Below, one piece after another: positions 4,485-37,513 of a DNA stretch of 37,513 bases. Source of the stretch: a virus; the IMG/VR virus record IMGVR_UViG_3300023116_000120, positions 1 to 37,513 of that record; one strand, given 5' to 3'. A program made the translations under genes and the position numbers. Within the stretch, counting starts at the first letter, position 1, and every line of letters starts with the position of its first letter. The notes beneath the pieces are model-generated. The model saw only the letters and a program-made list of their open reading frames with translations. It made no database searches and was not told the origin of the DNA.

Positions 4485-7400
4485 CAACACTTAATGAATC
4501 AAAGTTTTTAAACAAACAAAAAGATGTTTGTGAGGATACCGTTGCGGAGAGACCGCCTCCGAAGATATGCCCTACTTGCATACCGAATCCCGATGCTATT
4601 GTTCCTACTTGGTATGAAGCCGAAGAGCCATTCCTTGATGAACAACGATGCGAGTATGTTGTCAGAGTTAATGTAAATGACAATGGCGATAGTTACGATG
4701 TATCTCAAATGAGAGAATCGGGCAAATCTCTTCGTGAGGTTTTAAATTCCTACAAGATTGCAGGAATCTATCAATTATTGCGATTTTTTGAAAAAGAAAT
4801 ATCAAACCAAGTAATCTTCGCCTTTGCTGATGATCCTCAAAAACTTAAGAGATTATTGAGAAGAAATAGAGCAAAAACAGAAGATTTGGTTGAGAAGGTG
4901 ACCCAAAGTGTCACTGACGGTGTTTTCGATATTTACTCATTGAGCGAAGGACTTATTGAAGCATATGGGCTAAATGCTGAAGGATTCAATCCCGAGGCGC
5001 TTGAACTCTATGCTCGTGCTGATGACTATTGGGTTTCTTTGTACCAAACACCAAAAGGCGGAGAGCCAATCTGGGTAAAGGTTGTAATTCCGGCGTTTAT
5101 TTTCGATAGAGTTCCGGAAGGTCTTGCTGGAGATGAAGAAGATGAATCTGACACATCTGGTGAAAGAGAAGTTATCATTGACGGCACTAAGTTCAAAGGT
5201 AAGATACGAAGATTAAAGCACGTTCTCGGAGTTTACAGTAAATACCAAGCATATTGGTGGCAATCCGAGAAAGGCAAACTGGCTTTTCAGAATGACCCAG
5301 TTAAGGGGTCATATAAGAACTCGTTCTATTGTAAAATCTATATCGATAAAATTAATGATATTGCTGACGAAATTGAGTCACTAATTGAATCGCAAACTGA
5401 TTTCAAATTGAGAAATCGTAGAACTCGCCGTGCTGTTGACAAAATCAAAATAACATTTAAGCAGAGAGGCAATAACCCTTATTATATAAAGAAACTCGAA
5501 GTCATGGGATTTAGTTGTCCCGAGTACGAAAGGATAAGTTTAAAATCTCTCAAGTCGGATGCAAGAAAATATAAAGCACCGTTTAATAACGAAACTGCGC
5601 TGGGATATATAGCCAATCTAAATCCTATCGACAGTGATCTTAATGCAAGAGAGACGCCTCCATGGCTTGACTTCTTAGTTAAATACACATATCCAAAACT
5701 AACTCTTGACTATGGAAATGCTTCACCAGAAACAAGCGTGACCGATGGCACCACTTCTATACTTGGCTGTATTGTTGATAATAACGGCGGGACAGAAGGT
5801 CTTCGTGACTTCTTCTTCGATCAGGTTATTTCAACCTTTGAGGCAATTGAATATAAATGGAACCAGAATGCATGCAAGGTTTTAGCAGGCGCCGCCAGCG
5901 CAGCAAGGGCTGCTGGTGATGCAGCGAGATCTGGTTTATCAGACGAACAAGCAGAATTTCAGCAAGATCAGATTCTTGGAGAACTTCAGGATGATCTAAA
6001 CGACACAAGTTCAGGATCAGGGAATATGTTCTTGGAGGCACGTCTTGAAAGAGCAGTAGACGATATGCAAGAAACTTTTGCTGAGATCGAAGAAGAACTA
6101 GCCGTATTTGAAAAAGAACTTGAGTTACAAGAACAGATAGATGCTCTCTTAGTACAGAGAGAAGAAGCAGAAAAAGAACTTAAAATAATAGTCGCAGTAT
6201 GGGATTCGATTATAATTGGTAGAAATTACAGAATCGAAGAATTAGCGGGACCAACACTTGATGAAATGGAAGCAGCCGCTGCGGCTTCAGAGCAAGCAGC
6301 CCAAGAAGCCGAAGATGAAGCCCGCCGCCAAGAGCAAGAAGCCGAAGTTCTTGTCTTGATGAATCAGATTTATGGCGCACCAATACCAATAAAGCCATCT
6401 TCTGAAATTGTAGACCAAAGTTGGGAAAATACTGATAATTCACAATTATTAGACATAGGGCAACCAGCCGCACCCAATCTTCGAGAAACGGCCCTTCTCC
6501 AGAGCGCTTTTGATAAATATCCGGATGCAAAATTAACTTTAAAAGCATTTTATGCAGATTTAATTCGTAGAAATGGAAACGACATAGCGCAGGGTATTTT
6601 TACAGAAGAAGAAGTTAAAAAAGCAAAAGAATTGTCAAAACAAATCTCTTCGAATCCCGATAAAGTAGATAAACTTAATAAAGAACTTCAAGAACTTCAA
6701 GAAAGCACTGCAAAATCTCGAGCAAAGGCACAAAAGAAAGCCGAGAACCAAAAAGAAAAGAAAGCAAGACAAAACGCAAAAACAAAAAGAAAGAAAACAA
6801 AGGAAGTCAACAAAGAAGCAGATGGCATCCTATCCGGAAGAAAAGCGCGAAAGAAAAACCGGGAACAAAGACAAGACGATCGCAGATTTTATAGAGCAGA
6901 TGCTAGAGCATCCAGAACAGAGCGTCGTCAATCTCGAGGTGCAGAAAGGGGCGAGAACCCTTTCATTGCAGCCGGAAGAGAAGCAGCAATTGCTGGTTTT
7001 GACTTTGAAAACTCACTTGTCTCTTTGTTTTTAACAGAAGAAGAAATGGCAAACTATGGCTTGTCTGGTTTTAATTTATCAAGAATTGCAGGTAAAGTCC
7101 CAAGTAGAAGTGAACGACGAGCCAATAGAAAGAAAAAACGAGGCCAGGGCGCTGCTCAACGATTAAAAAACTTTTTTGACAACTTTGGTATTTGTGGTTT
7201 TAATAAATTGATCGAAAAAGCAATCAAGTGTCTATTGTCAGGAATGGATTTAAGAACCGCTCTTAATCAAATCGTTCGTGCCGCAATATCAAATATGTCC
7301 CCTGCCGCAATGGAAAAACTTCTTGTTGGTCTTGACCCAAGAAAACAAGCCGAGATTCGAGAATATGTCGCTCAACAATTTCAAGATATGCCTGCTCCAT

Positions 7401-10400
7401 GGGAAAGAGATTATCAACCCGGCCGTGTAACAACCGATCAGCAAATGGATGCAAAACAATTGTCGTCTGTGTCTGATAATATTTCTTCAAATGCTGGTAA
7501 TCTTGAAAAATATAAAACACAAGTATCGGCACTTGATGATTTTGTTTCTGCTTTAAGAGAGTTCCTTGGCGAAATAGAACAACAAGCAAGTTCGACTCAA
7601 TTGCCAACCAATATTACACTTCGCCGTGGGGCCGCTGGAAATAATGTAAAAACATTACAAAACCTTTTGATAAATAATTTGGGACCTCATATTCCTAATG
7701 AATCAGGTGTTCCTGCCGGATTTGCAGTTGACGGTGATTTTGGTCCAAAAACCGATGAAGCAGTACGCTCATTTCAAACTCTAAAGGGATTAGCCGTAGA
7801 CGGAATAGTTGGGACTCAAACTATTAATGCATTAAATGGACCAGTAAAACCTGCAACTCTTGGTCCTGAGAACATAGAGCAAATTTCAGTTCAATTTTCT
7901 GCTAGCAATGATATAAAGGAATTTTTAATTTCTAAACTGACAGGCAAGACGCCAGAGCAAGCGCCAACAGTTGCAAATCAAATTAAAGATGATCTGAATA
8001 AAAAAATAGAAGAACTTGAGACGAAAGGTAAAGAACTTCAAGGTTCATTGACATCAGAACAACTTCAGCAATGGCAAAATATGACCGATGTACAACGACA
8101 GCAGATGATTAATGATGCTCGTACTGAAGCAGGATTTATTGTTGATGTGTCTAATCCAGAGCAGGTTCGACAAGGGTCTATTGGCAAGGCACTTGGTAAC
8201 GTTCAAGGAGCGATATTTGATGCTTATGTTGAGGCGTTTATGTCTCTAGTTGGAATCGAGGATCTATTCGCTGCCTTGGATAAGATTCCCGGTGCCAAAT
8301 TGATTGGAAGAATTATTGCATCTTTTGATTGTCCTAACGTTCACTTTGTTTATCCTCCGATTAGATCATTCTTGAGTACCCTGACATTTAAACAATGCTT
8401 GGATGGAGGCCGACTTGCATTCCCCAAACTTCCGAGATTACCAAATATTAGAAGTTTGGCAGGAATTATATTTAGAAAACTAAAAGAAATAATACAAGAA
8501 GAAATAGAAAACTTAATAACTAGAGTTTATGTGGCAATGCTCTTAAAAGTATTATTAACAATTGAGAATGCATTATGTAAGGCACTAGAGGCCGTGGGTA
8601 GATTCGCAGCCGAAGCCGTTAAGGGTCCCGATGCCAATTTTGGTGGCATGATGCGTGATTTATTTTGTGATGACGGTACGAGCGATTCAGATGTCGATGA
8701 TTTAACATCAAGTTTGCTGACCGATGCCGGAATCACAAATACAGATTTACAGAACTTGGCAAAAAATGCAACTGCAAGTGATCTAAAGAACAAACATAAA
8801 GAGATAACAGAAACGATTGCAAGAATTTCTTCTAGAAGAGAATTGGAACAACTCTTGGTTGCAAATGACGGAGAACAAGATATAAATACGTTAAGAAGAA
8901 TATCTTCAACAATCTCGCTTAAATTTCCAGAGTTTGCAATATTTTTTGATGATCCGAGCAAAGTCGCTGCCATATTTAGCAACATTGGCAATAGATTGAG
9001 CCCCGAACAGCGTGCCAATGTAAGAGATGGCCTAACAAGGCCCGGAGTCAATGTACCAGTTGATTCTTCTGTTTGTTTGACGTCAGATCAAATGGATGAG
9101 TGGAATGATAAAAGAAAAACAATTTTAACCAATGCCGGGATGAATCCAGATGAAGCAGAAGATTATGTTAATAAACTTAACGATCGCGCTGCTAGCGATT
9201 TGCTTGATTTAGCAAATATCCTCGCTAAAGGGCCTGAAAGTGTTATGGGCGATGCGATCAATAATGCTTTTAATCCAAACCCAAATGACAAAGGTAGACT
9301 AAATGATCCATTCTGTCCTCCAACAAACGCTTCTTCAATTGTGGCTTTGGACACAGAGGAATCTTTACAAGAGGCAGCAGAACTTGCCGAGGGCACATTT
9401 AGATCTTTGGCATTTGCATTTACCAATGATATGATTGGGAAGAGAGACTCTTTCTTGGATAATGTCCTTGCCGATACGTGCAACCTTCCTCTGAAGAGAC
9501 ATGAGCAAAGATCAAATAACTTTGTTTTCCAAATCGACTGGGCCAACTCACAAGAAGACTGGGATGCAAAAAAAGAAAGATTCTCAACAACCAAACTTGG
9601 TGAAATATATTTCGGTGCCCTTTCAAGCGAAGAACCCATAGGTGTATTTCCAGAGACTGTTGGCATTCTAACAAAAGAAAAGTTGGATGCAAATGATTTT
9701 GCGATTGATTTTAAAACAACAGAGAAAGTTCGTCCTCAAACGAAAACAAAAATAATAGAGAAAGTGGGGCCACTGAAAGACGTTAATGTCAAGATCCGCA
9801 GAACATATAGAAAAGAGCCAGATCTTATTCTTGATTTCTTCAATGATAAGAATGAGGGCTGCCGATTTGAATACGAATTAATGTTTACAAACTATCAAGA
9901 AGGCGAGATCAAATTCAAAAAAGAATTAGGTTATCGAACATTCATCTATTACTATGGAAATGAATATGAAAAATCATTTTTTGGAAAGGAAGACGAAGAT
10001 AAAGAAATACCATACGATCGACTAGAATACAGAGTTGTTAATACGGTCGGCATCTCGGGCACTGGTTCAGCGCTCGTCGAGCAGCATGGGTCAATTTCTG
10101 AAGATGAATTGCAAGAACTTAAAGTCCCATATCAGGGAGTTCTGTTTTCTAATTATATCAGTTCTATCCTTTCTGCATCAGGACACTCCGCCCTCCCAGT
10201 TAAACAAATAGCGAAGGACTCATATAAAAATTATATGGAGTATCTCTACAAAGGTGTTCTTAAAGGCCTTAATCAAAAGTTAGATGGAACACAACCGGAA
10301 GGCTATGACTTCGGATACGTAGCAAATAATCTGACACCAGATGATGTGTTGTATGTAAACCCTGAAGCGACATCTGACGAGAGCACTTGGGAATATACGT

Positions 10401-12517
10401 ACGATGAAGAAGAAATGGTTCTAGGCAAATCTGCCACAAACAATGAAAGAGTCCACTTCTTGGATCCTGCAATCTACGGCGGTAGTTATAGCAATCCACC
10501 ATTTTACATCGAGCCACAGAAATTTAAAGGCTGGCTTGGGATTGCGTCAGCGCTTGTTCCGGAGTTTGATGGATGTAAACCTAGACGCACTGATTTTATT
10601 GGCTTGAAAGAACTGGCTGACAATGTCACAAAATTGGAACAAGCAATCCCGCCTGATTCAAGATTAAGCGAGGACCCTGACTGTATCAACCATACACCGT
10701 TTGATAAAATATCCGATCCGTCAACGCTCGCTTATTTAGATACCACAGTCGCTGCAACAATTAGAATCTATGCATGCGAGGCAATGGTAAAATCAATGCC
10801 CGTTCTTTCTCACATGAGATATTCTGAAGACAACTATGACACTGGCTTTGCCTCTGTGATTGTGGAAAAGATGGAACAAGGATTATCTGAAACGGAGGCT
10901 CTCATTCCTATATTTGGAGGAAGAGTTCAAAATTATAATTATTGGCTTCTTTTTCTTGAATGTGCTGTTATGGCTCTGGTTCGCAAAATTAGTATGGGCG
11001 AAATCGAATCCAATTCAGAAATTGATGATGCAAGGGCAATTATTGATAAAGCACAACGACGTCACTTGTATCCAAACAGGGATGTACTTAGAGTGATTAA
11101 AGGTTATGGATCTTCTATTGAAAGAATTAAGACTATCAATCCTGCTAAAATAGACGAAGATTATAAGAATCAGCCAAGAGTTCGACAAGTACTAAAAGGA
11201 TGTTATATTGCAGGATATCCGGGACTTGCCCAGAAAGGCAGAGTGATCGATCAGACAATTGATTTCGATCCGCTTCTTCTTTCGCTAAACGGCGCTCGAT
11301 TTGCATCACATATAAATACAATTTATGACGTGAGAAGACAATGTAAGATTCTTTTGAAGTATCTCGTTAGTCATGAAATAAGCCAATTGATGTCAAATCT
11401 AAACGAAAGATTCGACGGAAGCCAATATATTTACGATTTTTATCGATATACCTTGGCTTTACCTGATGTTTACGCTAAAACTGGCCTGAAATCAGGTCTC
11501 ACAGAGACAGAAGCACCCATTACAGATGGTGAAATATCATATGGATCAGTGCCTGACGTTGGCGATGTTAGTTCTGTTGATCTCACAGCGGCCGGTGGCT
11601 TTGGTTTTTACATTGAAAAATACGTAAGAACGGTTGAGAAGCCGGAAGAATTTTATTCCGAGAGCCCATTTTGGGCGAATCCTGACTCCGAAGCTGCACA
11701 AATTGTCAAGAATATGCCGAATTCTTTGAAGGGTGTGTGCAATATTAAAGAGTTTGGAGAGTATTTCTCTCAAGCAAAGGATCTTTTTGACGAGAATGCC
11801 AACATTTCAGACATCTTTGGCGATGCTTCAATAAGCGAAGGCAGCGAAGAGTACTTAGGATCGACCGGATTGAAGTTCGGTGTTCGAATTATAATGGTGC
11901 CTGATGCTATTCTCGCCGGAAAGATAAACGAAGGCGAGATCGATTCCAAGTTTGCCCGAGAAGAAAAGTCATATAACCTCCAGTCAATTCCTGTTGCATC
12001 GTTCGAACAAGATATTCCAGATATCAAATTCAAAGAATTAAAGTTCAATAATCCAACTTTGGACGAAGATCTTAAATGTTACATTGATAATCTTGTAAAG
12101 ACCGACGAGTTTGTGTTTTTGATGGACTATGTGTTTGGAATTAAGAAATTACCATCTATTCTGTTGACATATGTGAACGAGGCGTTCATTCAAGCCGTTG
12201 GCGCTGATGTTGAGAGAGATGTCGATAATATTATTGACCGCTTTGATGATGCGTGGAAGGGCGAGGTGCTGTCCGATTCCAAGAGGGAGTGCCGTAGATT
12301 GTTTGCTGCTTTCTATCGATCCGATGACTTTGAAGTACCCGAAGGCGACGACGGTAGATCATTAGCAGAAATATTCGAAGATATGAAGAAGGGAAGCATT
12401 TTTGGAAGGCCAGACCCATCAATGCGTTGGTGGAGAAGACGACGACAGCGTGGAAGACCATACGATAAAGATGGGAACGAATGTGCAGGAGAGTTTGGCG
12501 GACTATTTAAGAACTAG
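4481..12517 (+). CDS. Giant (2678-residue) baseplate/tail structural protein with internal peptidoglycan-binding domain
   Basis: One uninterrupted frame starts with an ATGA overlap. The N-terminus has CPTCIPNP at residues 30-37, a possible metal-binding CxxC. Residues about 515-625 are Glu/Ala-rich coiled coil (ELAVFEKELELQEQIDALLV). Residues about 730-825 are an extremely Lys/Arg-rich stretch. Residues 1046-1120 match the PG_binding_1 fold: LRRGAAGNNVKTLQ, VDGDFGPKTDEAVRSFQ, LAVDGIVGTQT. Several hydrophobic helices occur further on (for example VYVAMLLKVLLTIENAL, near residue 1350). The last 30 residues hold an Arg-rich WWRRRRQRGRP. I recognise no enzyme. Lying between spike and gp25 genes it is most likely a hub or hub-wedge protein that contacts the cell wall. 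A tape-measure role is an alternative given its length and helices. Length is unusual; T4 has no baseplate protein of this size. Confidence 0.7.
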   Translation: MTTLNESKFLNKQKDVCEDTVAERPPPKICPTCIPNPDAIVPTWYEAEEPFLDEQRCEYVVRVNVNDNGDSYDVSQMRESGKSLREVLNSYKIAGIYQLLRFFEKEISNQVIFAFADDPQKLKRLLRRNRAKTEDLVEKVTQSVTDGVFDIYSLSEGLIEAYGLNAEGFNPEALELYARADDYWVSLYQTPKGGEPIWVKVVIPAFIFDRVPEGLAGDEEDESDTSGEREVIIDGTKFKGKIRRLKHVLGVYSKYQAYWWQSEKGKLAFQNDPVKGSYKNSFYCKIYIDKINDIADEIESLIESQTDFKLRNRRTRRAVDKIKITFKQRGNNPYYIKKLEVMGFSCPEYERISLKSLKSDARKYKAPFNNETALGYIANLNPIDSDLNARETPPWLDFLVKYTYPKLTLDYGNASPETSVTDGTTSILGCIVDNNGGTEGLRDFFFDQVISTFEAIEYKWNQNACKVLAGAASAARAAGDAARSGLSDEQAEFQQDQILGELQDDLNDTSSGSGNMFLEARLERAVDDMQETFAEIEEELAVFEKELELQEQIDALLVQREEAEKELKIIVAVWDSIIIGRNYRIEELAGPTLDEMEAAAAASEQAAQEAEDEARRQEQEAEVLVLMNQIYGAPIPIKPSSEIVDQSWENTDNSQLLDIGQPAAPNLRETALLQSAFDKYPDAKLTLKAFYADLIRRNGNDIAQGIFTEEEVKKAKELSKQISSNPDKVDKLNKELQELQESTAKSRAKAQKKAENQKEKKARQNAKTKRKKTKEVNKEADGILSGRKARKKNREQRQDDRRFYRADARASRTERRQSRGAERGENPFIAAGREAAIAGFDFENSLVSLFLTEEEMANYGLSGFNLSRIAGKVPSRSERRANRKKKRGQGAAQRLKNFFDNFGICGFNKLIEKAIKCLLSGMDLRTALNQIVRAAISNMSPAAMEKLLVGLDPRKQAEIREYVAQQFQDMPAPWERDYQPGRVTTDQQMDAKQLSSVSDNISSNAGNLEKYKTQVSALDDFVSALREFLGEIEQQASSTQLPTNITLRRGAAGNNVKTLQNLLINNLGPHIPNESGVPAGFAVDGDFGPKTDEAVRSFQTLKGLAVDGIVGTQTINALNGPVKPATLGPENIEQISVQFSASNDIKEFLISKLTGKTPEQAPTVANQIKDDLNKKIEELETKGKELQGSLTSEQLQQWQNMTDVQRQQMINDARTEAGFIVDVSNPEQVRQGSIGKALGNVQGAIFDAYVEAFMSLVGIEDLFAALDKIPGAKLIGRIIASFDCPNVHFVYPPIRSFLSTLTFKQCLDGGRLAFPKLPRLPNIRSLAGIIFRKLKEIIQEEIENLITRVYVAMLLKVLLTIENALCKALEAVGRFAAEAVKGPDANFGGMMRDLFCDDGTSDSDVDDLTSSLLTDAGITNTDLQNLAKNATASDLKNKHKEITETIARISSRRELEQLLVANDGEQDINTLRRISSTISLKFPEFAIFFDDPSKVAAIFSNIGNRLSPEQRANVRDGLTRPGVNVPVDSSVCLTSDQMDEWNDKRKTILTNAGMNPDEAEDYVNKLNDRAASDLLDLANILAKGPESVMGDAINNAFNPNPNDKGRLNDPFCPPTNASSIVALDTEESLQEAAELAEGTFRSLAFAFTNDMIGKRDSFLDNVLADTCNLPLKRHEQRSNNFVFQIDWANSQEDWDAKKERFSTTKLGEIYFGALSSEEPIGVFPETVGILTKEKLDANDFAIDFKTTEKVRPQTKTKIIEKVGPLKDVNVKIRRTYRKEPDLILDFFNDKNEGCRFEYELMFTNYQEGEIKFKKELGYRTFIYYYGNEYEKSFFGKEDEDKEIPYDRLEYRVVNTVGISGTGSALVEQHGSISEDELQELKVPYQGVLFSNYISSILSASGHSALPVKQIAKDSYKNYMEYLYKGVLKGLNQKLDGTQPEGYDFGYVANNLTPDDVLYVNPEATSDESTWEYTYDEEEMVLGKSATNNERVHFLDPAIYGGSYSNPPFYIEPQKFKGWLGIASALVPEFDGCKPRRTDFIGLKELADNVTKLEQAIPPDSRLSEDPDCINHTPFDKISDPSTLAYLDTTVAATIRIYACEAMVKSMPVLSHMRYSEDNYDTGFASVIVEKMEQGLSETEALIPIFGGRVQNYNYWLLFLECAVMALVRKISMGEIESNSEIDDARAIIDKAQRRHLYPNRDVLRVIKGYGSSIERIKTINPAKIDEDYKNQPRVRQVLKGCYIAGYPGLAQKGRVIDQTIDFDPLLLSLNGARFASHINTIYDVRRQCKILLKYLVSHEISQLMSNLNERFDGSQYIYDFYRYTLALPDVYAKTGLKSGLTETEAPITDGEISYGSVPDVGDVSSVDLTAAGGFGFYIEKYVRTVEKPEEFYSESPFWANPDSEAAQIVKNMPNSLKGVCNIKEFGEYFSQAKDLFDENANISDIFGDASISEGSEEYLGSTGLKFGVRIIMVPDAILAGKINEGEIDSKFAREEKSYNLQSIPVASFEQDIPDIKFKELKFNNPTLDEDLKCYIDNLVKTDEFVFLMDYVFGIKKLPSILLTYVNEAFIQAVGADVERDVDNIIDRFDDAWKGEVLSDSKRECRRLFAAFYRSDDFEVPEGDDGRSLAEIFEDMKKGSIFGRPDPSMRWWRRRRQRGRPYDKDGNECAGEFGGLFKN

Positions 12518-14775: not shown

Positions 14776-16292
14776 TGGCTGTAAAGAGATACCTCGCTAC
14801 GAAAGATAATACAATAACAAACTCGTTTCAATCTGATCTGTCCACAAGGGGCACTGGCTCAAATATGGGACAATCCGATATATTGGAAGCATTTTCTATT
14901 TACGCTCAAGCCACAACTTCTTCTGTTGAATTACAGAGATTTATGATCCAGTTCGATACAACCTCGATTAATACTGACCGTGATGCTGGTATTCTTCCCG
15001 CAAGTGGCTCAGTTGAGTGGAGACTAAAACTTTATAACGCTCGCCATAGCAGCACTCAGCCGTTCAATTATGATATGACAGTTCACCCAATTACAGCAGA
15101 TTGGGAGGAAGGTATTGGCTTAGATATGGAAAACTATTCCGATCTGACTTATGACGTGATTGGTTCAAACTGGATCCGCTCTGCTGGCTCCACTGCTTGG
15201 GATGTTGAAGGCGGATCTTATCTGCAAACTCCAAATGCAACTGCGTCATTCCTAGTTGGCAATGAAGATATGTCAGTAATTGTTACTGATATGGTTGAAG
15301 ACTGGCTTGGCTCAAGTCCTACCAGAACAAACTATGGCTTTATGGTTAAACTCGCAGAGCAGTTTGAGAGCGCCAGTCTATCTTATTATACAAAGAAATT
15401 CTTCGCTCGAGGAACCGAATTCTTTTTCCAAAAGCCTGTACTTGAGGCGCGTTGGGATTCAAGAACTAACGATGATCGCGGTGAATTTTACTTGTCTTCT
15501 GCTTTGGCTCCTGCTGATGATAACATGAATACATTATATTTTTATAACTTTGTTCGTGGAAGACTGCGTGAGATTCCAGATCTCGGGGATGACAAGAGAG
15601 TTTATGTATCTTTGTTTTCCGGATCACTTGCAAATACCGCCCCCTCTGGTTCTCCTCAAGTACTGGTTGTTGACGGAACGCATGTCACATCCAACAACAA
15701 TCTCGTTATAACAGGCGGAATTGTTTCCACAGGAATTTACTCAGCGTCTGTTGCTTACACTGGCTCTGATACGATGACCAAAGTCTTTGATGTTTGGTTT
15801 ACTGGCAGCGATTCTACTACTTCGGCTTATGACGCCGATACTCAATTTCACACAGGCACAATTGATATTGAAACCTTTGAGGCTTCAAATTATTCAACCA
15901 CAAACCGATACGTGATTAATTTTACAAACATACAGCAAGAGTATTATCCAGAGCAGTCAGCAAGATTCAGAATGTTTGCGAGACAAAAAGGATGGTCTCC
16001 AAACATTTACACGGTCGCTCAGGCAACCGTACCAACCTTGACATTTAGAAGTGCTTCATATCAAATCACAAGAGCAACGGATGATTATGTCGTTATAGAT
16101 TATGGAACAGGCAGTGTATACCACACATTGATGTCGTACGATGTATCTGGCAACTATTTTGATCTAGATATGGGTTTATTGGAACCGGGTTATGCATATA
16201 ACATACAAGTATCTATCTATGATGATGCTGTTGGTACTTATATCGAACAACCATACAGTTTTAAATTCAAGGTAAATAAGTATGACTATTAA
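14775..16292 (+). CDS. Baseplate/tail structural protein with DNRLRE-like beta-sandwich
   Basis: This 505-residue, Ser/Thr/Tyr-rich protein has no catalytic motif. The N-terminal half (DNTITNSF, SSVELQRFMIQFDTTSI, VEWRLKLYNARH, ITADWEEGIGLDMENYSD, IVTDMVEDWLGS, NYGFMVKLAE) follows the strand order of DNRLRE-type carbohydrate-binding sandwiches, which read 'R.LL.FDLS...L.L.......V..V...W.EG...'. The second half contains further short-strand domains with SGS/TGS linkers (VSLFSGSL, YTGSDTMTKVFDVWFTGSDS) and ends in a strand-rich module (PYSFKFKVNKYDY). Directly after gp6, where T4 has gp7/gp8, it is probably an outer wedge or side-plate component. Its C-terminus overlaps the next gene by 11 bases. 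The family name is inferred from pattern only. Confidence 0.65.
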   Translation: MAVKRYLATKDNTITNSFQSDLSTRGTGSNMGQSDILEAFSIYAQATTSSVELQRFMIQFDTTSINTDRDAGILPASGSVEWRLKLYNARHSSTQPFNYDMTVHPITADWEEGIGLDMENYSDLTYDVIGSNWIRSAGSTAWDVEGGSYLQTPNATASFLVGNEDMSVIVTDMVEDWLGSSPTRTNYGFMVKLAEQFESASLSYYTKKFFARGTEFFFQKPVLEARWDSRTNDDRGEFYLSSALAPADDNMNTLYFYNFVRGRLREIPDLGDDKRVYVSLFSGSLANTAPSGSPQVLVVDGTHVTSNNNLVITGGIVSTGIYSASVAYTGSDTMTKVFDVWFTGSDSTTSAYDADTQFHTGTIDIETFEASNYSTTNRYVINFTNIQQEYYPEQSARFRMFARQKGWSPNIYTVAQATVPTLTFRSASYQITRATDDYVVIDYGTGSVYHTLMSYDVSGNYFDLDMGLLEPGYAYNIQVSIYDDAVGTYIEQPYSFKFKVNKYDY

Positions 16293-19200
16293 GGATTTAT
16301 TTGGTAAATCAAAAGTAGCAGTTATTGAAAGTTCTGAAAGTGGCAGTGTTGATCTAGAATCGCCCACTTTCCTAGACACGGTCATAAAAGATAATTCAAC
16401 TTTCGTTCCTTTTTTGGACTTTTCTGATCCAAATCTGTTTGTAAAGTTTGGTTCTGCTGAACTTTATTACGACTCTGCGATTAAAAGAATCTACCAAACA
16501 TATCCTTACGACGGCTCGGACAACGAGAAACTACAGTTCCAATTGTCCTCGTCTTATCTTGAAGAGTGGCTTTATTACAATAAATATCCACGCTCCACTG
16601 GTTACGCCATCTTCAGCGCCAATGGTTGGGGCTCGCAAACTAGCGAGGCCGATGGTTATGGATATCCAGCCTCTCAAGAATATATTGACGCTGCTGGCGG
16701 CCTACATACAGCCTCCGCTGGTATGCTGACAGGCAAACTCTACGAAAACTTTGATAAATCAATCAAGTACGACGCAAACAAAAATAGAACACAAAACTTT
16801 CGCTTGATGCCAACAGATGGTAACACAATCGAGTTCTGGCTCAAAAAAGATGCGTTTGATGTTGCAAGCACAGAGAAAGAAGTTATTCTTGACCTTTGGA
16901 ATACAGAAGACACATCATCTTCTGATTATGGTCGTTTGACAATTTACTTAACAGGATCGGGCGTTGGAGATTCTGGTGCAAACCCAATCAGAGTCACACT
17001 TAGAAACGGAACACAAGGATTTGACGATCAAGCAATCGCCAGTTCTGACTTTACAACCTCCTCACTAGCAGACTCAAGTTGGCATCATTATGCTATTTCT
17101 TTCGTATCTCAATCGACAAGCATAAAATCTTACTTCTATGTTGATGGTACTTTGGAGAATGAACTTGATATCGGGTCTGCTGGTATTGATGAAATCTCTG
17201 GTAGAGTCAATGCTCGTATCGGTGCTCTAAAGACATCACCAGATGGATCGTCTGCCCTCGCCGGTGCTGGTAAATTAAGCGGCTCATTGGATGAATTTAG
17301 ATTCTGGAAAGCACGCCGAACCTCTAAAGTCATCAATCGTAATTGGTTCCAGCCAATTGCTGGTGGCTCAAATACCGAGGACAACAACACTGCTCTTGGG
17401 TGTTATTACAAATTCAACGAAGGCATCACGACCAACAATTCTACAGATGCGTCAGTTCTAGATTACTCTGGTCGACTAACTAACGGTACATGGACTGGGT
17501 ATTCATCTGCTTCTCGTAATACCGGCTCTTGTTTTGTCTCCGCTTCTGTGATTTCGGTCGAAGAACCAGATCCGATCATCTACAGCACTCATCCAGATGT
17601 CGTCTCTCTTTCATCCGAGATGCAGACCAGTGGATCCGATTACGACACCACAAACACAACTTATTTATTTCAAAAACTACCACAATTTATTCAAGACGAA
17701 GACATCGATAATGATGATGATGTAAAGAAACTATTCCAGATTATCTCGTCTTACTTTGATACAATCTATTCTCAGACTAAGGTCCTCCCCGAACTTACTC
17801 AAAAGAATTACTTCTCGTCCTCAATGAAGCCGCTTCCGTTTGCAAATAAGTTGCTCGAAAGCCGTGGCTTTATGACAAGAGAACTGTTTGTGGACACCGA
17901 AGTTCTCGAGTTCTACAGAGGCAACGATTTACAAAATCTCAAATATGGTGAGAATGTAAATAAAATCAAAAACCAAATCTATCACAACATCTACAATAAC
18001 CTCGACTATATTCTAAAGTCAAAGGGAACCGAAAAGTCAATGAGGAACTTTCTTCGTTGCTTTGGTATTGATGATGAGTTGGTTAAACTAAATCTCTACA
18101 CAGACGGAGGCACTCACTATTTCACCGATGTATTTAAGAACACCTCGGTCACAAAGAAATATCTAAACTTTAATAATCCAGATTATTTTTCCTCCACCGT
18201 TTATCAAACCTCGTCCGCCAATAACTCAAATGTTTACATCTCGGGCTCTGGTATGAAGGGCTCAACCGAGAAGCTTGAAAGATTTAATGCCTTTACATTT
18301 GAAATCGACACAATTATTCCAGAAAAGATTGATATCACAGAGCAAGGCTTCTTTGACACAACATTCTTGTCTTCCTCAATTGGTGGCTTCCACCAGCCTG
18401 CCACCGGTGCAATAGGCGACCAATATCACTGGTCGACAGAAGACAACATCGCCAACATCCAAATATACACCGTAAAGGACAAAATTAACTCCGAGAGAGC
18501 AAAGTTTTTAATAACAAATGAAGACGGAACCCTATTCCTTACCTCGAGTTTTTATACTGAAATTTATAGCAATAATAGATGGAATTTGAGCGTAAGAGTC
18601 GCTCCTAATGGCTATGGTGTATATGGCTCTGCTTTGTCAAGTTCGAATCCTGATTATACGCTGACCTTCTACGGTGTCAATCACCAATTTGGCGAGGTAA
18701 GAGAAGAATTTAAATTAACTGCTTCGTTGAATAATACCTCGGGCTCTGCGTATGTTTGCAATCCGAAGGTTGTATACGCCGGCGCTCATTACGAAAATTA
18801 CACCGGCTCACTGCTCCAACAGTCCGACGTTCAGATTGGTGGTTGCCGTTATTGGTTTGACTTCCTTGAAGATGCTGACCTGAAGGCACACTCTCTCGAT
18901 GTCACTAGCATTGGTGTTGACAACGCAACTCGATGCGGTACGATGTTTACATATGAGATTTCCGGAACCGTCTTGCCTCGTGCTGATATGCTTGCGCTCA
19001 ACTGGGACTTTGATACGGTCACTGGCTCTGACTCAAGCGGCAACTTTGATGTCTTTGATCTGACCTCTGGTTCAACTGTGGCGACTTATGGCTGGCTTGA
19101 TAATATTGTTGAACGAGATCACCCAGCAATCGGCGCAAACTTCGGAGCCTCAAAGACCTCTTTCGTCGAGAACGAATTAATATACACAGCAAAGAAAGAA

Positions 19201-22200
19201 CTGCCTGAGATCTCTGTAAGTTCCGAGAACATTTATATTAAAGGCGATTTCCAAAAATTCTTTGTCAAAGACGACGATGTAAGCGACAACTTCTACTCGC
19301 TTGAGAAGTCAATGTATCAAGTCATCTCTGATGAGATGCTTTCAATGTTTGCATCTGCTGTTGAGTTTAACAACTTGATGGGCGAAGCGGTTGATAGATA
19401 CAGACATCGTTATAAGAATCTTGACAAGATGCGTCAACTGTTCTTTGAGAAAGTTGAGTCCGACATGGACTTCGATAAATTTACAAATTATTACAAATGG
19501 ATTGACTCGGCTATATCTGAGATGATGACACAGTTGTTTCCATTCTCCGCAAGACATTCAGAGGGAATCGCAGATATTGTTGAGAGCCATATTCTCGAAA
19601 GAAACAAATATCAAAACAAATTTCCGCTAACAACCCGACTTGCATCAACCGAAGGCTCGGCTCGAGGTGTTGGCGAACTTGATTATAATTGGAAGTTTGG
19701 ACATGCTCCTTTAACAGGGACTCCAGCAACTGCTGTAATTACAATTACAAATCCTGTAACCATAAACGATACACTTACTTTTGGAGACGGAAAATCAGAC
19801 CCTATTACATATAGTTTTCAAAATCCAGTGACAGACGCTTCGACTCAAATTTTGAGAGTAGCAACAGCACTTTTACAACGAGCGTATATACATAATAAAC
19901 TTGAAGCAGACTTTGATGTTGCAGTTGATCCAACTGGTGCTGACCCTGAAATTACAATAACTAATAATGCTTTTGCTTTTCAACGAGAAAGAGGAAATTA
20001 TACTTTATCGTCCTCTTTTACTGATGCGGATAATACTGTTTCTGGTTTTTCAGGTGGACATGATGATGAAAATAAAAACTGTCTTTGGAATAAAGAAAGA
20101 AAAGAAAGAACAGATATTGCAGACCGTCAAGTTATTCAGACTTCTATTTTAAATCACAATAGCGCCTCTGCTCCGCTGCTGGCAACAGACGACGGTACAA
20201 TGTATTTTGGCTCAACTTATGCAATCAATCGCTTAAGCAAGCCATACAAAGAGAGCATTGCCTTTAATGATTCAGTCCACGGTGGAACCAACTACTCAAA
20301 GATCAAAGATCGTGATTTTGTCTATAGTGCCACACGCATTCATGGTCCAGTAACACAAGAATATCCTAAAGGAATTCCTCAAAACGTAATGGTTGTTGGC
20401 GTTGGTGAAGGTCAAGGCGTTGATACTTTCATTGATTGTCTAGATGTCGAGAATCCAAATGAAAAAAGAAAGTGGAGATTTTCTGCTACAATTGGTCGCT
20501 TTGCAACCGGACAAAATCCACAAGCCAGACAAGGCGAAGATTATACTCACAAAGTCAAATCTGAGGCATATTGGCCGGCAAATTTGATCTCTGGCAATGT
20601 CGAAGGGGGTTATGCCGACCTTGTGACAACAAAGTTCAAAAGTGGCTCAATTATAACTAATTTACACTCGGATACGTTTTCTCCAACAAATGAGATTGGC
20701 CTTCAATCTCCGTTCACAAATGCTTGGGTTGGAGGACACCAATCTCGTCATGTTGATTTGAATAGATCAAGTAGCATTAATCCTTTAATGAACGGTCTTA
20801 ACGATCAATACTCTCGCCCCGAAGCGTGGAGACTTTTATTAAAAGAATGTCCAGATGGATCAAACTCAAGTGGCTCCTTCCAAGGATCGAACGACGGAGC
20901 AATGGGCTTTGTCGGACCGGACTACGGTGGTCCATATCCGGACAAATCTCGTAAGTACGCTTTCCGATATCGTGAGGAAAGAACAAAGCGTCCCGTAAAC
21001 TTAAAAAATATCAAAACAACAACTGGCTCTGCGGTGCTAGGAAACTATACGGAGAACTATGAAGTCGTTCACACTTTTGGGATGAAAGGCAATAGCCCTG
21101 TTCTAGAACAAGCGACCGGATCTTTATTGCCCGATTATCATAGCACTCAATTACCTGCTTCAACTCATTATCAAACATTGATTGGTGTGTCTCCGTTTTT
21201 ATCTGGAAATGTCTTCGGACAGCCAGATCCACTACAAAAGACAGGCAACAACAGACAATCAAATGCATCGTCACAAACGATACAAGAAGGTGTTGAAGGG
21301 CAATTGGCTACTGTCGGACTGGCATTCAAGATGCCTCCACATGATGTTGTCGGAACCGGCAGTACTTTGACAGTACCAACAACTGGTTCTGGAATCACCA
21401 TCGGCATCGACGCAGATGGTTCCGATTTAAGAGTAAATACAGATGGCAGTGATACTAACTTTCGTATCAATTTGGCCGCTGCTCTAACAGATGCCACTTT
21501 ATATGATAATACAAAAACTACAACAGAAGGTGGTGATACTGATACTTGTTTTCAAATAAATTCGCCCGGCAGTGCGGCTTTAAGAATGCCGAATCTCATA
21601 GTCAACGGCGCTTATCCTCTAATCAAAGAATCAAACGATGATGATTTCTATTGGGCAGGATGGATTTATTATCCATCTGGCAGCACAGGAGTTTTTAGAA
21701 GAATTTTTGGTATTTATGACGATGGCAATTCATTGTTAAAATGTGGTGTCATGGTTTCTTCAAATGGTCATGATTTGTATCTTAGTTTAAGAGATGAATC
21801 TTCAATGCGTCATTGGTTATATAACAACGGCGGCGCAAACTTTGATGATACTCATGCAAATCAGTGGACCCATATCGCCGTCTCATTTAACAGTTCGTCA
21901 GTACTACAACAAGATTCGGTTACTTTATATATTAACGGAGTCAGCGCTTCAATAGATACTTTCCCTACTTTAGGTGGTGCACAATATTCTGCTTCTCATG
22001 ATAGTACGTTTGGAATTATGCAAGATGGAGATGGGACCAATACAAGTCAACGTCAACAATGGTCTGGCTCTGCGACAAATTGGGTATTTGGAACTGGTTC
22101 ATTACTATCTACAGATGTTTTGAAACTGTACAACCATGGGTACGTCTGGGATACAGAATATAGTGCGTCAGAAATAGCAGCACATTGGAAATTCGGAGGT

Positions 22201-23199
22201 ACGTCTTCTTTTGGAACAGATGAAATTGTACAACCGGGCGCTAAGTTTTTTAATCACTTAAGTAGCGACTATTTTATAACAGCGTCAAATCCAGTTGTTG
22301 CCGCATTTGATACTACATTGTCATTTCAAACAGCCGGAACTAATGGTGGATCGCTTTATACACCTACAATAGCAACATTTGGTTTGACAGCATCATTACA
22401 GAATTCAAATTATAACGGCGCGATTACATCAACCGGAGATACAATTTACCTTAATGGAACTGCGCACTCGGATCCATTCTTTAGTTTGGGCACATTGTCC
22501 GGTGGTGTTACACCAATTGCAGAAGTTGCCAGAAGAGGGCTTGTCAATGTAATCCCTTCACAGCGAGATGATTTAACATCATCGAACTCAATTATTAGAA
22601 CTCGCTTTTCTGCCCCCGGTGGTCCCGAGATTAATACGAGAGGATACTTGGATATTGGTTCTCAAGAGTTCTCTGTTTACAACGCAATGCCTTTCCGCAA
22701 TCTATCAGTCCTTGGATCTGGTTCTGGCGAGGACACAACAATAAGAGTTGACAGCCAAGCATCTAGACGAGAAGGTTTGAGAACACTTTACACAAGACAT
22801 TGCGGAAGATACGGAATCGACTCACAATTTGGAGCGATCCAAGAAGATTCTTATGTTGTGGTTGATGCATCTTATCATAAAATTAATCGTAATACAAGGG
22901 TAGTTGTCGAGACCGGTTCACTAATTATTACTGAAAGTGTTGACAATTTTCATGTTTCAAGACCAATTCCATCGCAAGATTATGGATACGCATGGGTGAC
23001 TGCGTCTTTATCAGAAGAATTGTCTCCGAGAACAACAGGAAATCAAGTGGTATTTGGTTATTGGCCAAAAGACGGTATATCAAAAGCAGACCCAAATCTT
23101 CAATGGCGAGACAATGGATTTGACTCTGCGGTCAACTTCCCAACCGCTTCCGCTGGAGATGCAACAAGCGGAGAAGGTCTTGTAGGAGTATATTCATAA
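16282..23199 (+). CDS. Giant (2305-residue) structural protein with LamG/lectin-like domains
   Basis: Residues 180-355 form a full LamG/concanavalin-like domain: NTIEFWLKKD, SSWHHYAISFVSQS, SYFYVDGTLENELDIG, KLSGSLDEFRFWKARRTSKVINRNW. A second, more divergent sandwich lies at about 670-880 (FTFEIDTIIPEK to VQIGGCRYWFDF). A third is at about 1780-1973 (YWAGWIYYP, NQWTHIAVSFNSSS, VTLYINGVSASID, AAHWKFGG). Between them are helical segments that look conserved and structural (LFQIISSYFDTIYSQTKVLP, and SEMMTQLFPFSARHSEGIAD). Residues about 1147-1265 form an inserted beta module ending in a GFSGG motif. The protein follows gp6 and the 505-residue gene and is likely a wedge or receptor-binding component that holds host-surface glycans. 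It starts inside the preceding gene and ends in TAATG. Confidence 0.7.
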   Translation: MTIKDLFGKSKVAVIESSESGSVDLESPTFLDTVIKDNSTFVPFLDFSDPNLFVKFGSAELYYDSAIKRIYQTYPYDGSDNEKLQFQLSSSYLEEWLYYNKYPRSTGYAIFSANGWGSQTSEADGYGYPASQEYIDAAGGLHTASAGMLTGKLYENFDKSIKYDANKNRTQNFRLMPTDGNTIEFWLKKDAFDVASTEKEVILDLWNTEDTSSSDYGRLTIYLTGSGVGDSGANPIRVTLRNGTQGFDDQAIASSDFTTSSLADSSWHHYAISFVSQSTSIKSYFYVDGTLENELDIGSAGIDEISGRVNARIGALKTSPDGSSALAGAGKLSGSLDEFRFWKARRTSKVINRNWFQPIAGGSNTEDNNTALGCYYKFNEGITTNNSTDASVLDYSGRLTNGTWTGYSSASRNTGSCFVSASVISVEEPDPIIYSTHPDVVSLSSEMQTSGSDYDTTNTTYLFQKLPQFIQDEDIDNDDDVKKLFQIISSYFDTIYSQTKVLPELTQKNYFSSSMKPLPFANKLLESRGFMTRELFVDTEVLEFYRGNDLQNLKYGENVNKIKNQIYHNIYNNLDYILKSKGTEKSMRNFLRCFGIDDELVKLNLYTDGGTHYFTDVFKNTSVTKKYLNFNNPDYFSSTVYQTSSANNSNVYISGSGMKGSTEKLERFNAFTFEIDTIIPEKIDITEQGFFDTTFLSSSIGGFHQPATGAIGDQYHWSTEDNIANIQIYTVKDKINSERAKFLITNEDGTLFLTSSFYTEIYSNNRWNLSVRVAPNGYGVYGSALSSSNPDYTLTFYGVNHQFGEVREEFKLTASLNNTSGSAYVCNPKVVYAGAHYENYTGSLLQQSDVQIGGCRYWFDFLEDADLKAHSLDVTSIGVDNATRCGTMFTYEISGTVLPRADMLALNWDFDTVTGSDSSGNFDVFDLTSGSTVATYGWLDNIVERDHPAIGANFGASKTSFVENELIYTAKKELPEISVSSENIYIKGDFQKFFVKDDDVSDNFYSLEKSMYQVISDEMLSMFASAVEFNNLMGEAVDRYRHRYKNLDKMRQLFFEKVESDMDFDKFTNYYKWIDSAISEMMTQLFPFSARHSEGIADIVESHILERNKYQNKFPLTTRLASTEGSARGVGELDYNWKFGHAPLTGTPATAVITITNPVTINDTLTFGDGKSDPITYSFQNPVTDASTQILRVATALLQRAYIHNKLEADFDVAVDPTGADPEITITNNAFAFQRERGNYTLSSSFTDADNTVSGFSGGHDDENKNCLWNKERKERTDIADRQVIQTSILNHNSASAPLLATDDGTMYFGSTYAINRLSKPYKESIAFNDSVHGGTNYSKIKDRDFVYSATRIHGPVTQEYPKGIPQNVMVVGVGEGQGVDTFIDCLDVENPNEKRKWRFSATIGRFATGQNPQARQGEDYTHKVKSEAYWPANLISGNVEGGYADLVTTKFKSGSIITNLHSDTFSPTNEIGLQSPFTNAWVGGHQSRHVDLNRSSSINPLMNGLNDQYSRPEAWRLLLKECPDGSNSSGSFQGSNDGAMGFVGPDYGGPYPDKSRKYAFRYREERTKRPVNLKNIKTTTGSAVLGNYTENYEVVHTFGMKGNSPVLEQATGSLLPDYHSTQLPASTHYQTLIGVSPFLSGNVFGQPDPLQKTGNNRQSNASSQTIQEGVEGQLATVGLAFKMPPHDVVGTGSTLTVPTTGSGITIGIDADGSDLRVNTDGSDTNFRINLAAALTDATLYDNTKTTTEGGDTDTCFQINSPGSAALRMPNLIVNGAYPLIKESNDDDFYWAGWIYYPSGSTGVFRRIFGIYDDGNSLLKCGVMVSSNGHDLYLSLRDESSMRHWLYNNGGANFDDTHANQWTHIAVSFNSSSVLQQDSVTLYINGVSASIDTFPTLGGAQYSASHDSTFGIMQDGDGTNTSQRQQWSGSATNWVFGTGSLLSTDVLKLYNHGYVWDTEYSASEIAAHWKFGGTSSFGTDEIVQPGAKFFNHLSSDYFITASNPVVAAFDTTLSFQTAGTNGGSLYTPTIATFGLTASLQNSNYNGAITSTGDTIYLNGTAHSDPFFSLGTLSGGVTPIAEVARRGLVNVIPSQRDDLTSSNSIIRTRFSAPGGPEINTRGYLDIGSQEFSVYNAMPFRNLSVLGSGSGEDTTIRVDSQASRREGLRTLYTRHCGRYGIDSQFGAIQEDSYVVVDASYHKINRNTRVVVETGSLIITESVDNFHVSRPIPSQDYGYAWVTASLSEELSPRTTGNQVVFGYWPKDGISKADPNLQWRDNGFDSAVNFPTASAGDATSGEGLVGVYS

Positions 23200-33623: not shown

Positions 33624-33655
33624 AACTAATTAATATAACAATTTGAGGATTAAAT
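33624..33655 (+). promoter_or_regulatory. Intergenic gap with AACTAATTA motif and ribosome site
   Basis: The 32-base gap begins with AACTAATTA (33624-33632), followed by ATATAACA, and contains GAGGA at 33645-33649, six bases before the ATG at 33656. The ribosome site is good. The motif is the third copy among the widest gaps and may mark a late promoter; not proven. Confidence 0.42.
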
Positions 33656-35737: not shown

Positions 35738-36907
35738 ATGTCATTTTATAAATTTACAGAAGATGACTTATTTACAAATACAATAGAAGCATACCCCGAG
35801 TATTCTTTCTACATCGTTAGTAGTTCGGTTTATATAAACAATATTCCAAATCAATCTGGTGCCCTGACTGACAACATCTTCGGTGTACCAGATGGTTTCC
35901 TATCGTTGTATGAATATAACATTGATAGACCCTCGACGTATATCTATCCGTTTCTTTACAAAGACGGATTAAAGAATGTATTCAAATCATATAACACCGG
36001 ATCATACAATATCGCAGATTACGGAACTGTAATTACGTCAAGTTATCGTTTATCCTCATCGATTTCAAGACACTATTATGATACAAGTTCAACAGGGTCT
36101 GCGAGGACTTATTTGTTCCCCTTGAAGAATACACTCAATCATTACACATATCTTTCTCCGAGATATGCATATTCTGCTTCATTTGGAGATAAAAATGAAG
36201 ATGCCCTTAACTTAATTGATATTCCTTCAGTCTTTTACGGCTCATCGATTAAGAAAGGAACTGTGTCACTAAAATATTATATCTCTGGATCACTGATTGC
36301 AGAGTTGGTTGACAAGAATTTAAATGGAGATCTAATACAAGTTTCGAGTTCGGACGATGCTCAGGGCGAAGGTAGAGTTGCCGGGACCGTATTGTATAAC
36401 GAAGGCTTCATTATTTTGACAGGCTCGTGGGACTTGAACGGAGATCAAATTGATTATAAAACAGGTATTCCTGACAATTCAAAATGGATCTACTTCGGGA
36501 CCGGTACTAACGAAGGAACAGTCACGGGAAGCATTCATTATCCCTCTGCTTCTTTCGCAATCGATTATCAAGGCACTACTCACACACAAACATTAACAAT
36601 GTTTGCTCATGCAAAGCAAGGCCATTTAAATTATTCAAATAATCCGACTTATCTTAAATATAATGAACCAAACTACAAGAATGCTTCAACGGGATCCTCG
36701 GTCTACGGTGAACGGCCTGTTCCATTGCATAATAATGTTGATTCGTCATTCACAGATGTCGCCCCAGATTTTGAAAAAGTTACTTATATCTCGAAGGTTG
36801 GTATCTACGATGAAAATAAAAATCTTATCGGCATTGCCAAGGTCGCTGTTCCAATTAAGAAGACAATAAAAAATAACTATACTTTCAAGTTAAAACTTGA
36901 CATTTAG
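35738..36907 (+). CDS. Structural protein, second of two adjacent paralogues
   Basis: This 389-residue protein shares its central and C-terminal modules with the preceding gene (IKKGT[FV]SL, NYS.NPTYL, YI..VG[LI]Y.EN..L, KKT..N...). The N-terminal third is different and rich in Tyr/Ser (EYSFYIVSSSVYIN, SSYRLSSSISRHYYDTS). The last module carries a longer loop (NYKNASTGSSVYGERPVPLH), absent from the first copy. It follows after only six bases with no good ribosome site, so translational coupling is likely. The last codons contain the -35 box of the resolvase promoter. Most likely these are two subunits of one structure that diverged after a tandem duplication. Confidence 0.65.
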   Translation: MSFYKFTEDDLFTNTIEAYPEYSFYIVSSSVYINNIPNQSGALTDNIFGVPDGFLSLYEYNIDRPSTYIYPFLYKDGLKNVFKSYNTGSYNIADYGTVITSSYRLSSSISRHYYDTSSTGSARTYLFPLKNTLNHYTYLSPRYAYSASFGDKNEDALNLIDIPSVFYGSSIKKGTVSLKYYISGSLIAELVDKNLNGDLIQVSSSDDAQGEGRVAGTVLYNEGFIILTGSWDLNGDQIDYKTGIPDNSKWIYFGTGTNEGTVTGSIHYPSASFAIDYQGTTHTQTLTMFAHAKQGHLNYSNNPTYLKYNEPNYKNASTGSSVYGERPVPLHNNVDSSFTDVAPDFEKVTYISKVGIYDENKNLIGIAKVAVPIKKTIKNNYTFKLKLDI

Positions 36908-36925
36908 CAAATTATATGTTATAAT
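36897..36925 (+). promoter_or_regulatory. Perfect sigma70-type promoter of the resolvase gene
   Basis: TTGACA at 36897-36902, a 17-base spacer and TATAAT at 36920-36925 match the bacterial sigma70 consensus at all twelve positions, and TG at 36917-36918 adds the extended -10. The -35 box lies in the final codons of the upstream structural gene. The ATG at 36933 is only seven bases past the -10 box, so transcription would begin at or beside the start codon. ATTATA at 36911-36916 mirrors the -10 box, and 36921-36934 is a 14-base palindrome. Confidence 0.75.
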
Positions 36926-36932
36926 ATATATT

Positions 36933-37484
36933 ATGGAATTACAACGAGTTATTTTTGGTATTGATATTAGTACCTCGCGGATTGGCATCTCCGCTGTAAC
37001 AACAGATGAGAAATTAGTGTTTGCAGACACGATCACATTCAAGAAGAAAGATCTATCGCTTGAAGACAAAGCGCATATCTTTGAGAACACTCTCGGCAAG
37101 ATAATGCAACTGCAACGTCTTCATCCTCTTGCGGTGTTTGTTGAGGAGCCTTTCACGGCATTTGCCGGAGGCAAGACAACCGCCAACACAATGGCGAAAC
37201 TTCAACGGTTCAACGGAATGTGTTGCTATGCTATTCACAAAAGCATCTTCAATCTCTCAGCCCAGTTGCTCCCAGCGCGAACCTGTCGCTCTCTCAACGA
37301 GATCAAGATTCCCCGAGGATCCAATACAAAGAAATTAATTATTGATTGGGTCTCCGCAAAGTATCCAAAAGATTTCACATATGAGTTGACGAGACACGGT
37401 AATCCAAAGCCCGGCACAGATGATAAAGCAGATGCTGTCGTGGTTGCTTTGGCAGGTTTGAAAAAATATAAAGAATCTATTTGA
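36933..37484 (+). CDS. RuvC-like Holliday junction resolvase
   Basis: This 183-residue protein has an RNase H-like RuvC fold. The catalytic set is in place: Asp11 in FGIDISTSRIG, Glu71/Glu72 in VFVEEPF, and Asp163/Asp164 with Asp167 in GTDDKADAVVVAL near the C-terminus. Bacterial RuvC has D7, E66, D138 and D141 in the same order. It should cut four-way or branched DNA; in phages without a T4 endonuclease VII such enzymes resolve replication branches before packaging. I start at ATG 36933 because the first strand with Asp11 begins just after it; a TTG 12 codons upstream would add a low-complexity leader lying inside the promoter. The gene is likely expressed from its own host-type promoter as a leaderless message, separately from the structural block. 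Confidence 0.85.
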   Translation: MELQRVIFGIDISTSRIGISAVTTDEKLVFADTITFKKKDLSLEDKAHIFENTLGKIMQLQRLHPLAVFVEEPFTAFAGGKTTANTMAKLQRFNGMCCYAIHKSIFNLSAQLLPARTCRSLNEIKIPRGSNTKKLIIDWVSAKYPKDFTYELTRHGNPKPGTDDKADAVVVALAGLKKYKESI

Positions 37485-37513
37485 CAAATCATTTGTGCTG
37501 TGTTATGTTATAA
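37484..37513 (+). promoter_or_regulatory. Possible promoter and palindrome at window end
   Basis: Immediately at the resolvase stop, ACAAAT-C-ATTTGT (37484-37496) is a perfect inverted repeat with a one-base centre. TGTTATAA at 37506-37513 repeats the extended -10 form seen upstream of the resolvase but is cut by the window edge. A TTGACA at 37481-37486 is 22 bases from that box, too far to pair with it; it is 17 bases from TATGTT at 37504. A promoter for a following gene is plausible but incomplete. Confidence 0.35.

Follow-up and report, generated by a model that had tools for sequence, protein, structure and literature searches.

A perfect sigma70-type promoter abutting the start codon of a putative phage resolvase gene predicts a leaderless message and is kept among relatives

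Introduction

Leaderless mRNAs have mostly been studied either as oddities of E. coli or as a bulk mode of expression in Actinobacteria and Deinococcus. In phage lambda, the repressor gene cI is expressed from PRM, an activated promoter of non-consensus sequence. The lambda cI message is leaderless (PMC9031893; lambda phage also appears in PMC3160421), and according to the former source the 5'-terminal AUG of leaderless mRNAs is bound mainly by 70S ribosomes. The locus described here resembles cI in that a single phage gene without a Shine-Dalgarno (SD) sequence has the −10 box of a sigma70-type promoter just before its ATG, and it differs in that the promoter has a perfect consensus, the gene encodes a putative nuclease, and the arrangement is kept across a clade.

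TA-led leaderless genes are an established class in bacteria (Zheng 2011, PMC3160421), and −10-adjacent open reading frames are described for Deinococcus-Thermus (PMC12340547); such genes have, like ours, a −10 box about 10–12 bp before the start codon and no SD. TA-led genes are there a sizeable share of a cell's genes, whereas here essentially one gene per genome has this layout (two genomes read whole). In the Thermus phage phiYS40 most middle and late transcripts are leaderless (PMC3594737); phage genes would be read from leaderless mRNA in both cases, but here one gene with a host-type promoter is concerned. The surprise is lowered by a general remark in PMC5312081, made without reference to this gene, that phage transcripts are often leaderless. 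No leaderless resolvase or comparable promoter layout was reported among the matches listed in a search of the open-access literature.

Translation of T4 gene 49 (endonuclease VII) reportedly depends on which transcript carries it, as Barth is said to have found in 1988, with the SD said to be hidden in a hairpin of the read-through RNA. T4 endonuclease VII and the RuvC-like resolvases are not known to be related proteins. The parallel is that both genes encode phage resolvases whose translation is reported (T4) or proposed (here) to be transcript-dependent; the difference is that no SD is present here.

Results

The resolvase gene and its promoter

The stretch analysed, hereafter the window, is 37,513 nucleotides of viral DNA (IMG/VR record IMGVR_UViG_3300023116_000120). 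Near its right end are the following features:

35738–36907, + strand: upstream gene, 389 aa, ending in KLKLDI; its TAG stop (36905–36907) lies inside the promoter
36897–36902, + strand: −35 hexamer TTGACA, within the last codons of the upstream gene
36917–36918, + strand: extended −10 TG
36920–36925, + strand: −10 hexamer TATAAT
36926–36932, + strand: discriminator atatatt, seven bases, with T at −1 of the start codon
36933, + strand: transcription start predicted from sequence, the A of the ATG and eighth base after the −10
36933–37484, + strand: RuvC-like resolvase gene, 183 aa (phrog_159, E 5e-9)

From its fold and acidic residues the 183-aa protein is a putative RuvC-type Holliday-junction resolvase. 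The predicted structure (model pLDDT 92) has a RuvC fold, its best Foldseek matches in the PDB being RuvC proteins (7xhj, E 3.8e-8; phage RuvC 4ktw, E 7.8e-8), and residues D11, E71, D164 and D167, which would correspond to the catalytic acidic residues of RuvC, are invariant in 20 aligned sequences. No Pfam family matched at E 0.001, and a PDB search by sequence, unlike the fold search, gave nothing better than E 0.7. With the window protein as query, tblastn against 50,697 phage records gave no match at 1e-5; when the diverged relative L039 was the query (E up to 10) seven records matched, one of them meaningfully (LR756508, an uncultured phage, E 9e-9), and by eye the 150 nt before the gene in LR756508 hold no promoter of the resolvase type.

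The initial annotation had described a 12/12 promoter with extended TG whose −10 ends seven bases before the ATG at 36933, and rechecking of the coordinates confirmed this. The site scores 12/12 with a spacer of 17 and the TG present; it thus has both hexamers, a spacer within 16–18 and the TGn of a sigma70-type extended −10 promoter, and by this consensus we predict it to be of the host-sigma70 type. Counted from its first T, the TATAAT is 13 bp ahead of the ATG, which places the gene with the TA-led class (−10-like box about 10–12 bp before the start). Perfect −35/−10 pairs with spacers of 15–19 occur three times in the window against 0.07 expected from shuffles; the other two are on the − strand inside large ORFs with spacers of 16 and 19, so the resolvase promoter alone has a spacer of 17. 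A chance origin of the promoter is rejected on this expectation and on its conservation in relatives (below). The promoter had also been called rare in any genome; this needs tempering, since in this lineage such promoters are common (15 of 17 related records, below).

Pairing with the anti-SD at the window ATG is calculated as +1.5 kcal/mol, against a median of −6.3 for the 113 genes of the close relative G001, which bears out the annotated lack of an SD. The choice of this ATG as the sensible start also held up: Asp11 lies ten residues on and is invariant in the 20 aligned relatives. An in-frame TTG inside the −35 box would give a 195-aa ORF in the window, but an in-frame stop lies between the −35 and the ATG in 31 of 41 leaderless-type rows of the alignment described below, which favours the ATG, and the TTG start was rejected.

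Conservation of the layout among relatives

A first scan with the window protein as query gave 68 loci, and use of the window's own peptides biased it towards close relatives. After removal of eight identical proteins and four unscorable loci (L044 and L067, incomplete genes; L017, lacking upstream DNA; L069, where no start could be found), these and the window made 57 distinct rows, 41 of which have the promoter 5–8 nt from the ATG. Thirty-eight of the 41 score 12/12, two 11/12 and one 10/12; spacers of 16–18 were allowed in scoring and 17 was best in all 41. TTGAC and the G of the TG are present in 41/41 and the T of the TG in 40/41, while the spacer interior varies. The remaining rows were initially scored as six with promoter and leader and ten with an SD and no promoter; one of the six, L022, was re-scored as leaderless on account of an in-frame ATG located 6 nt from its −10.

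A second scan, with an alignment of 20 relatives as query, gave 163 loci, 80 of which were examined; 33 of these were new, and 27 distinct after six identical proteins were removed. Twenty-four of the 27 have no promoter and three have a promoter with an SD leader. No new leaderless row was thus found among the 27 (from 80 of 163 loci), which counts against the layout being general for the resolvase family. For the 24 promoterless rows the median SD energy is −2.0, and many of them have hardly any SD or none and begin at the upstream stop or close to it, so promoterless rows are not all SD-led.

In an unrooted tree of 86 rows, whose bootstrap was rough and not fully converged, a branch with support 96/89 splits 33 rows from 53 (one of the latter unscored). 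The 33-row sister clade (eight first-scan rows, the 24 second-scan rows and L151) has the promoter in none, whereas the 52 scored distinct rows of the other clade comprise 42 leaderless, eight leadered (a clade of seven rows plus L242) and two promoterless ones (L031 and L050). Among the 42, 39 score 12/12 with a spacer of 17. A single gain or single loss of the promoter at the branch between the two clades would be the simplest account. Alignment of the promoter in relatives had been set as a check beforehand, and box, spacing and start proved to be kept in 42/52 clade rows; the original observation is confirmed and, because relatives keep the layout, stronger than the one sequence could show.

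Evidence for a leaderless start

The distances from −10 to ATG in the promoter-bearing clade are bimodal. They are 5, 6, 7 and 8 nt in 6, 10, 10 and 16 of the 42 leaderless rows and 16–18 nt in the eight leadered rows, with none between. Strong SD pairing (−5 kcal/mol or better) divides the rows in the same way, at 0/42 leaderless against 8/8 leadered rows (Fisher p 2e-9, indicative only since the rows are related), and median SD energies are +0.7 for leaderless rows, −6.8 for leadered rows and −7.3 for the ten promoterless first-scan rows; three leaderless rows (L015, L048 and L038) have weak pairing of −3 to −4 kcal/mol.

Polymerases with sigma70 start at bases 6–9 after the −10, and with gaps of 5–8 nt the A of the ATG falls at exactly these bases. 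The base before the ATG is T in 41 and C in one of the 42 leaderless rows, as expected if the RNA starts on the A; before the starts of 285 genes of two relatives it is A in 137, T in 75, C in 43 and G in 30 (T or C in 118/285). In the window the A at 36933 is the sole purine at positions 6–9 after the −10, and in 10/42 rows, the window included by its sequence, it is the sole pyrimidine-purine step at these bases. Another such step lies 3 nt upstream in 15/42 rows and 2 nt upstream in 1/42; in 16/42 there is one within the start codon itself, and a start at that step would destroy the AUG. We infer a transcription start at the A of the ATG or beside it, and that the resolvase mRNA is very probably leaderless, or has a leader of at most about 3 nt. 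Conservation of promoter, gap and SD absence in relatives strongly supports the leaderless reading originally predicted. Leaderlessness is not required for resolvase function, since eight same-clade relatives use a leader with an SD and the 33 sister rows have no promoter.

Other promoters and starts in related genomes

The pattern TTGACA-N14-TGN-TATAAT with at most one mismatch was found in 15 of 17 related records (G001–G017), with 102 sites by our count of the listing, whereas the reversed control pattern gave one site each in two of the 17 records and none in the rest. As a promoter class, the host-type control proposed for the resolvase is therefore borne out by recurrence of the same consensus. 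No consensus early promoter with at most one mismatch was found in G016 and G017 (loci L066 and L068, of the promoterless clade); their early signal, or the kind of host they infect, may be a different one.

Thirteen of the 102 sites are the resolvase's own and 89 are others, of which 80 were fetched and nine left out. An SD-led start lies 13–44 nt past the −10 in 50 of these 80 and within 120 nt in 61. An ATG-led ORF begins within 10 nt of the −10 at seven of the 80, and in six of the seven an SD-led ATG follows further on. The exception, L083, directly follows the resolvase gene in L039 (5518 onward); its TTGACA-N17-TATATT ends 6 nt before the ATG, making it a second gene of leaderless type.

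Among the 113 genes of G001 and the 172 of G004, no gene but the resolvase has a 12/12 promoter 4–9 nt before a start; a 10/12 match at that distance occurs at one further gene of G001. SD energies at the resolvase ATG are +1.5 and +0.9 in G001 and G004, against medians of −6.3 and −6.7, respectively. Genes and starts in these two genomes came from a simple ORF caller that prefers SD-led starts and so misplaces the resolvase's own; the promoter test covered every in-frame start. The resolvase is an exception in its own genome, which is otherwise mostly SD-led.

Late transcription signals and phage type

The resolvase had been annotated as lying where gp55-type late control gives way to host-type control. 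The window features relevant to late control are:

1368–2102, + strand: gp55-like late sigma factor gene (phrog_234, E 4e-7)
33625–33632, + strand: octamer ACTAATTA, a candidate late promoter, upstream of the gene at 33656
2109, 12502 and 12948: further candidate late octamers

The gp55-like gene matches PF04542 with E 6e-5, below the family cut-off. T4's TATAAATA was rejected as the main late signal, with four found in the window against 2.2 expected and a site upstream of one gene in each of two relatives. The octamer ACTA[AT]TTA, unlike T4's TATAAATA, looks like a gp55-type late promoter: forward and reversed counts are 25/0 in G001, 31/2 in G004 and 5/0 in the window, and 15, 11 and 4 forward octamers, respectively, lie within 60 nt before a gene start (in G001 and G004, L153–L169). 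One octamer-led gene in the window is the baseplate gene at 12976. The claim of gp55-type late control stands as far as the gp55-like gene is concerned, and its promoter would be ACTA[AT]TTA and not the T4 element, which is not clearly enriched.

The sets for gp23, gp55 and bS21 comprised the window and 16 of the 17 records (without G009). A gp23-type capsid gene is present in 11/16 related records and none in the window fragment; by this capsid in the relatives and the gp55-type late sigma factor, the group is assigned to the T4-like phages.

Gene surroundings and transcription unit

All window ORFs above 200 aa are on the + strand, two of them giant (4481–12517, 2678 aa, and 16282–23199, 2305 aa), and one strand holds 111/113 genes in G001 and 160/172 in G004. 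In the window 25 nt separate the upstream stop from the resolvase ATG, and no terminator-like site is listed on the + strand between 35265 and 37057. The final codons of the upstream gene contain the −35 in 14 leaderless rows, always as CTT GAC (Leu-Asp), a pair found in one of 27 promoterless rows with a recognised C-terminus (seven not recognised) and in none of 23 promoter rows with the −35 elsewhere (ten not recognised); the overlap itself dictates TTGAC, so these counts show that coding room is used and not independent selection. The leaderless layout is kept with a different nearest upstream ORF in L005, L037, L043 and L052 (by a simple ORF finder), and also in L008, with 184 nt and two tRNA genes lying between the end of the upstream gene and the −35.

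L008, 4772–4847: tRNA-Ala, downstream of the upstream structural gene and ahead of the leaderless promoter
L008, 4860–4932: tRNA-Gly, likewise
Window, 37481–37509, + strand: promoter-like TTGACA-N17-TATGTT (10/12), spanning the stop codon of the resolvase gene

The site of L002 that corresponds to the one at 37481 precedes an ORF with a leader. At the resolvase stop, the 40 readable leaderless rows (the window, too short past the resolvase, is left out) have an early-type promoter in 15, a late-type octamer in 15 and neither in ten; among first-scan rows a promoter is there in 5/6 leadered rows (L022 included) and 2/10 promoterless rows. With the next promoter at the resolvase stop in 30/40 rows, the resolvase would mostly be a one-gene unit. 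The annotated boundary of the structural block is right in that the resolvase follows a block holding the baseplate gene, but it is usually such a unit and not the head of an early block.

Discussion

How might such an arrangement work? We propose that the start point of the sigma70-type promoter coincides with the resolvase start codon, so that a leaderless message is made, whose translation falls to ribosomes able to recognise a 5'-terminal AUG. Unterminated late transcription of the upstream structural genes would also run through the resolvase gene, and in that RNA the AUG would be internal and without an SD, so little translation is expected from it. The resolvase would then be made only from the RNA of its own promoter and be silent in late read-through RNA; the promoter would both start the RNA and license its translation, and the layout would be a timing device in which two RNAs are told apart by where each begins. 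In promoterless relatives, which have an SD or start at the upstream stop, resolvase and upstream protein would instead be made together. Taken whole, with the leaderless start and the silence of the resolvase in late read-through RNA, this is the explanation we favour, with moderate confidence; for the gating of read-through expression by itself we put the chances at about even. Folding calculations give the AUG a mean unpaired probability of 0.27 in read-through RNA, 0.52 in promoterless rows and 0.82 when 5'-terminal; pairing of the AUG in read-through RNA exceeds that of shuffled controls only weakly (mean z −0.6) and is not seen in the window, where z is +0.7.

The layout might instead reflect neutral compaction, in which a promoter squeezed between close genes lost its leader with no regulatory role. 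In the window 25 nt lie between stop and ATG, and the coding end of the upstream gene holds the −35, which would fit this, but the message is predicted to be leaderless in L008 in spite of the 184 nt and two tRNA genes there, the layout is kept beside other upstream ORFs, the gaps lack intermediates, and 50 of the 80 other promoters fetched from related genomes retain an SD-led start 13–44 nt from the −10; we consider compaction rather unlikely. Were the promoter mainly to serve downstream replication genes, the resolvase being a poorly translated first cistron, one might expect what is seen in L003, where Pfam matches identify a primase and an SbcCD-like gene among the downstream genes, and in the 10/40 rows without a separate promoter at the resolvase end. 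Such an early- or late-type site is nevertheless present there in 30/40 rows, and the window has its 10/12 site at 37481, which make this account improbable.

Translation of the resolvase from upstream read-through RNA by termination-reinitiation, with the promoter of minor importance, has some appeal in the sister clade, where many rows have the ATG at or a few bases from the upstream stop and several of these have no SD. In the window, however, the ATG is separated from the stop by 25 nt and has no SD, the promoter hardly varies over deep divergence, and the sister clade, where coupling is plausible, keeps no promoter; we regard reinitiation as very improbable.

Retention of the layout across distant relatives suggests that it is a way to control the resolvase gene. 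The relatives constitute a natural phylogenetic experiment in which the same gene is leaderless, has a leader and SD, or is promoterless, in genomes that mostly use SDs, and they allow tests of what a leaderless start is for. If the proposed mechanism is true, reading of the 5' end would let phages with nearly all their genes on one strand shield a gene from read-through expression.

A gene for phage-encoded ribosomal protein bS21 is present in 13/16 related records (G001, 106218–106373, and 12 others) and absent from the window fragment. Phage bS21 is linked to late replication in other phages (PMC9723584). No association of bS21 with leaderlessness emerges from these records, which may be fragments; it also occurs in G017, one of the two promoterless-clade records. 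We tentatively entertain the possibility that the leaderless start, which would have arisen a single time and been retained through deep divergence, is a transcript-identity switch, and that bS21 might help to shut the resolvase off by steering ribosomes to SD-led late messages.

The sole cellular record found in the genome scan was L151, a phage fragment in the chromosome of WOR-3 MAG bin77 (CP070664.1) that is bordered by runs of N or masked sequence, and this record is probably a chimeric bin rather than a prophage.
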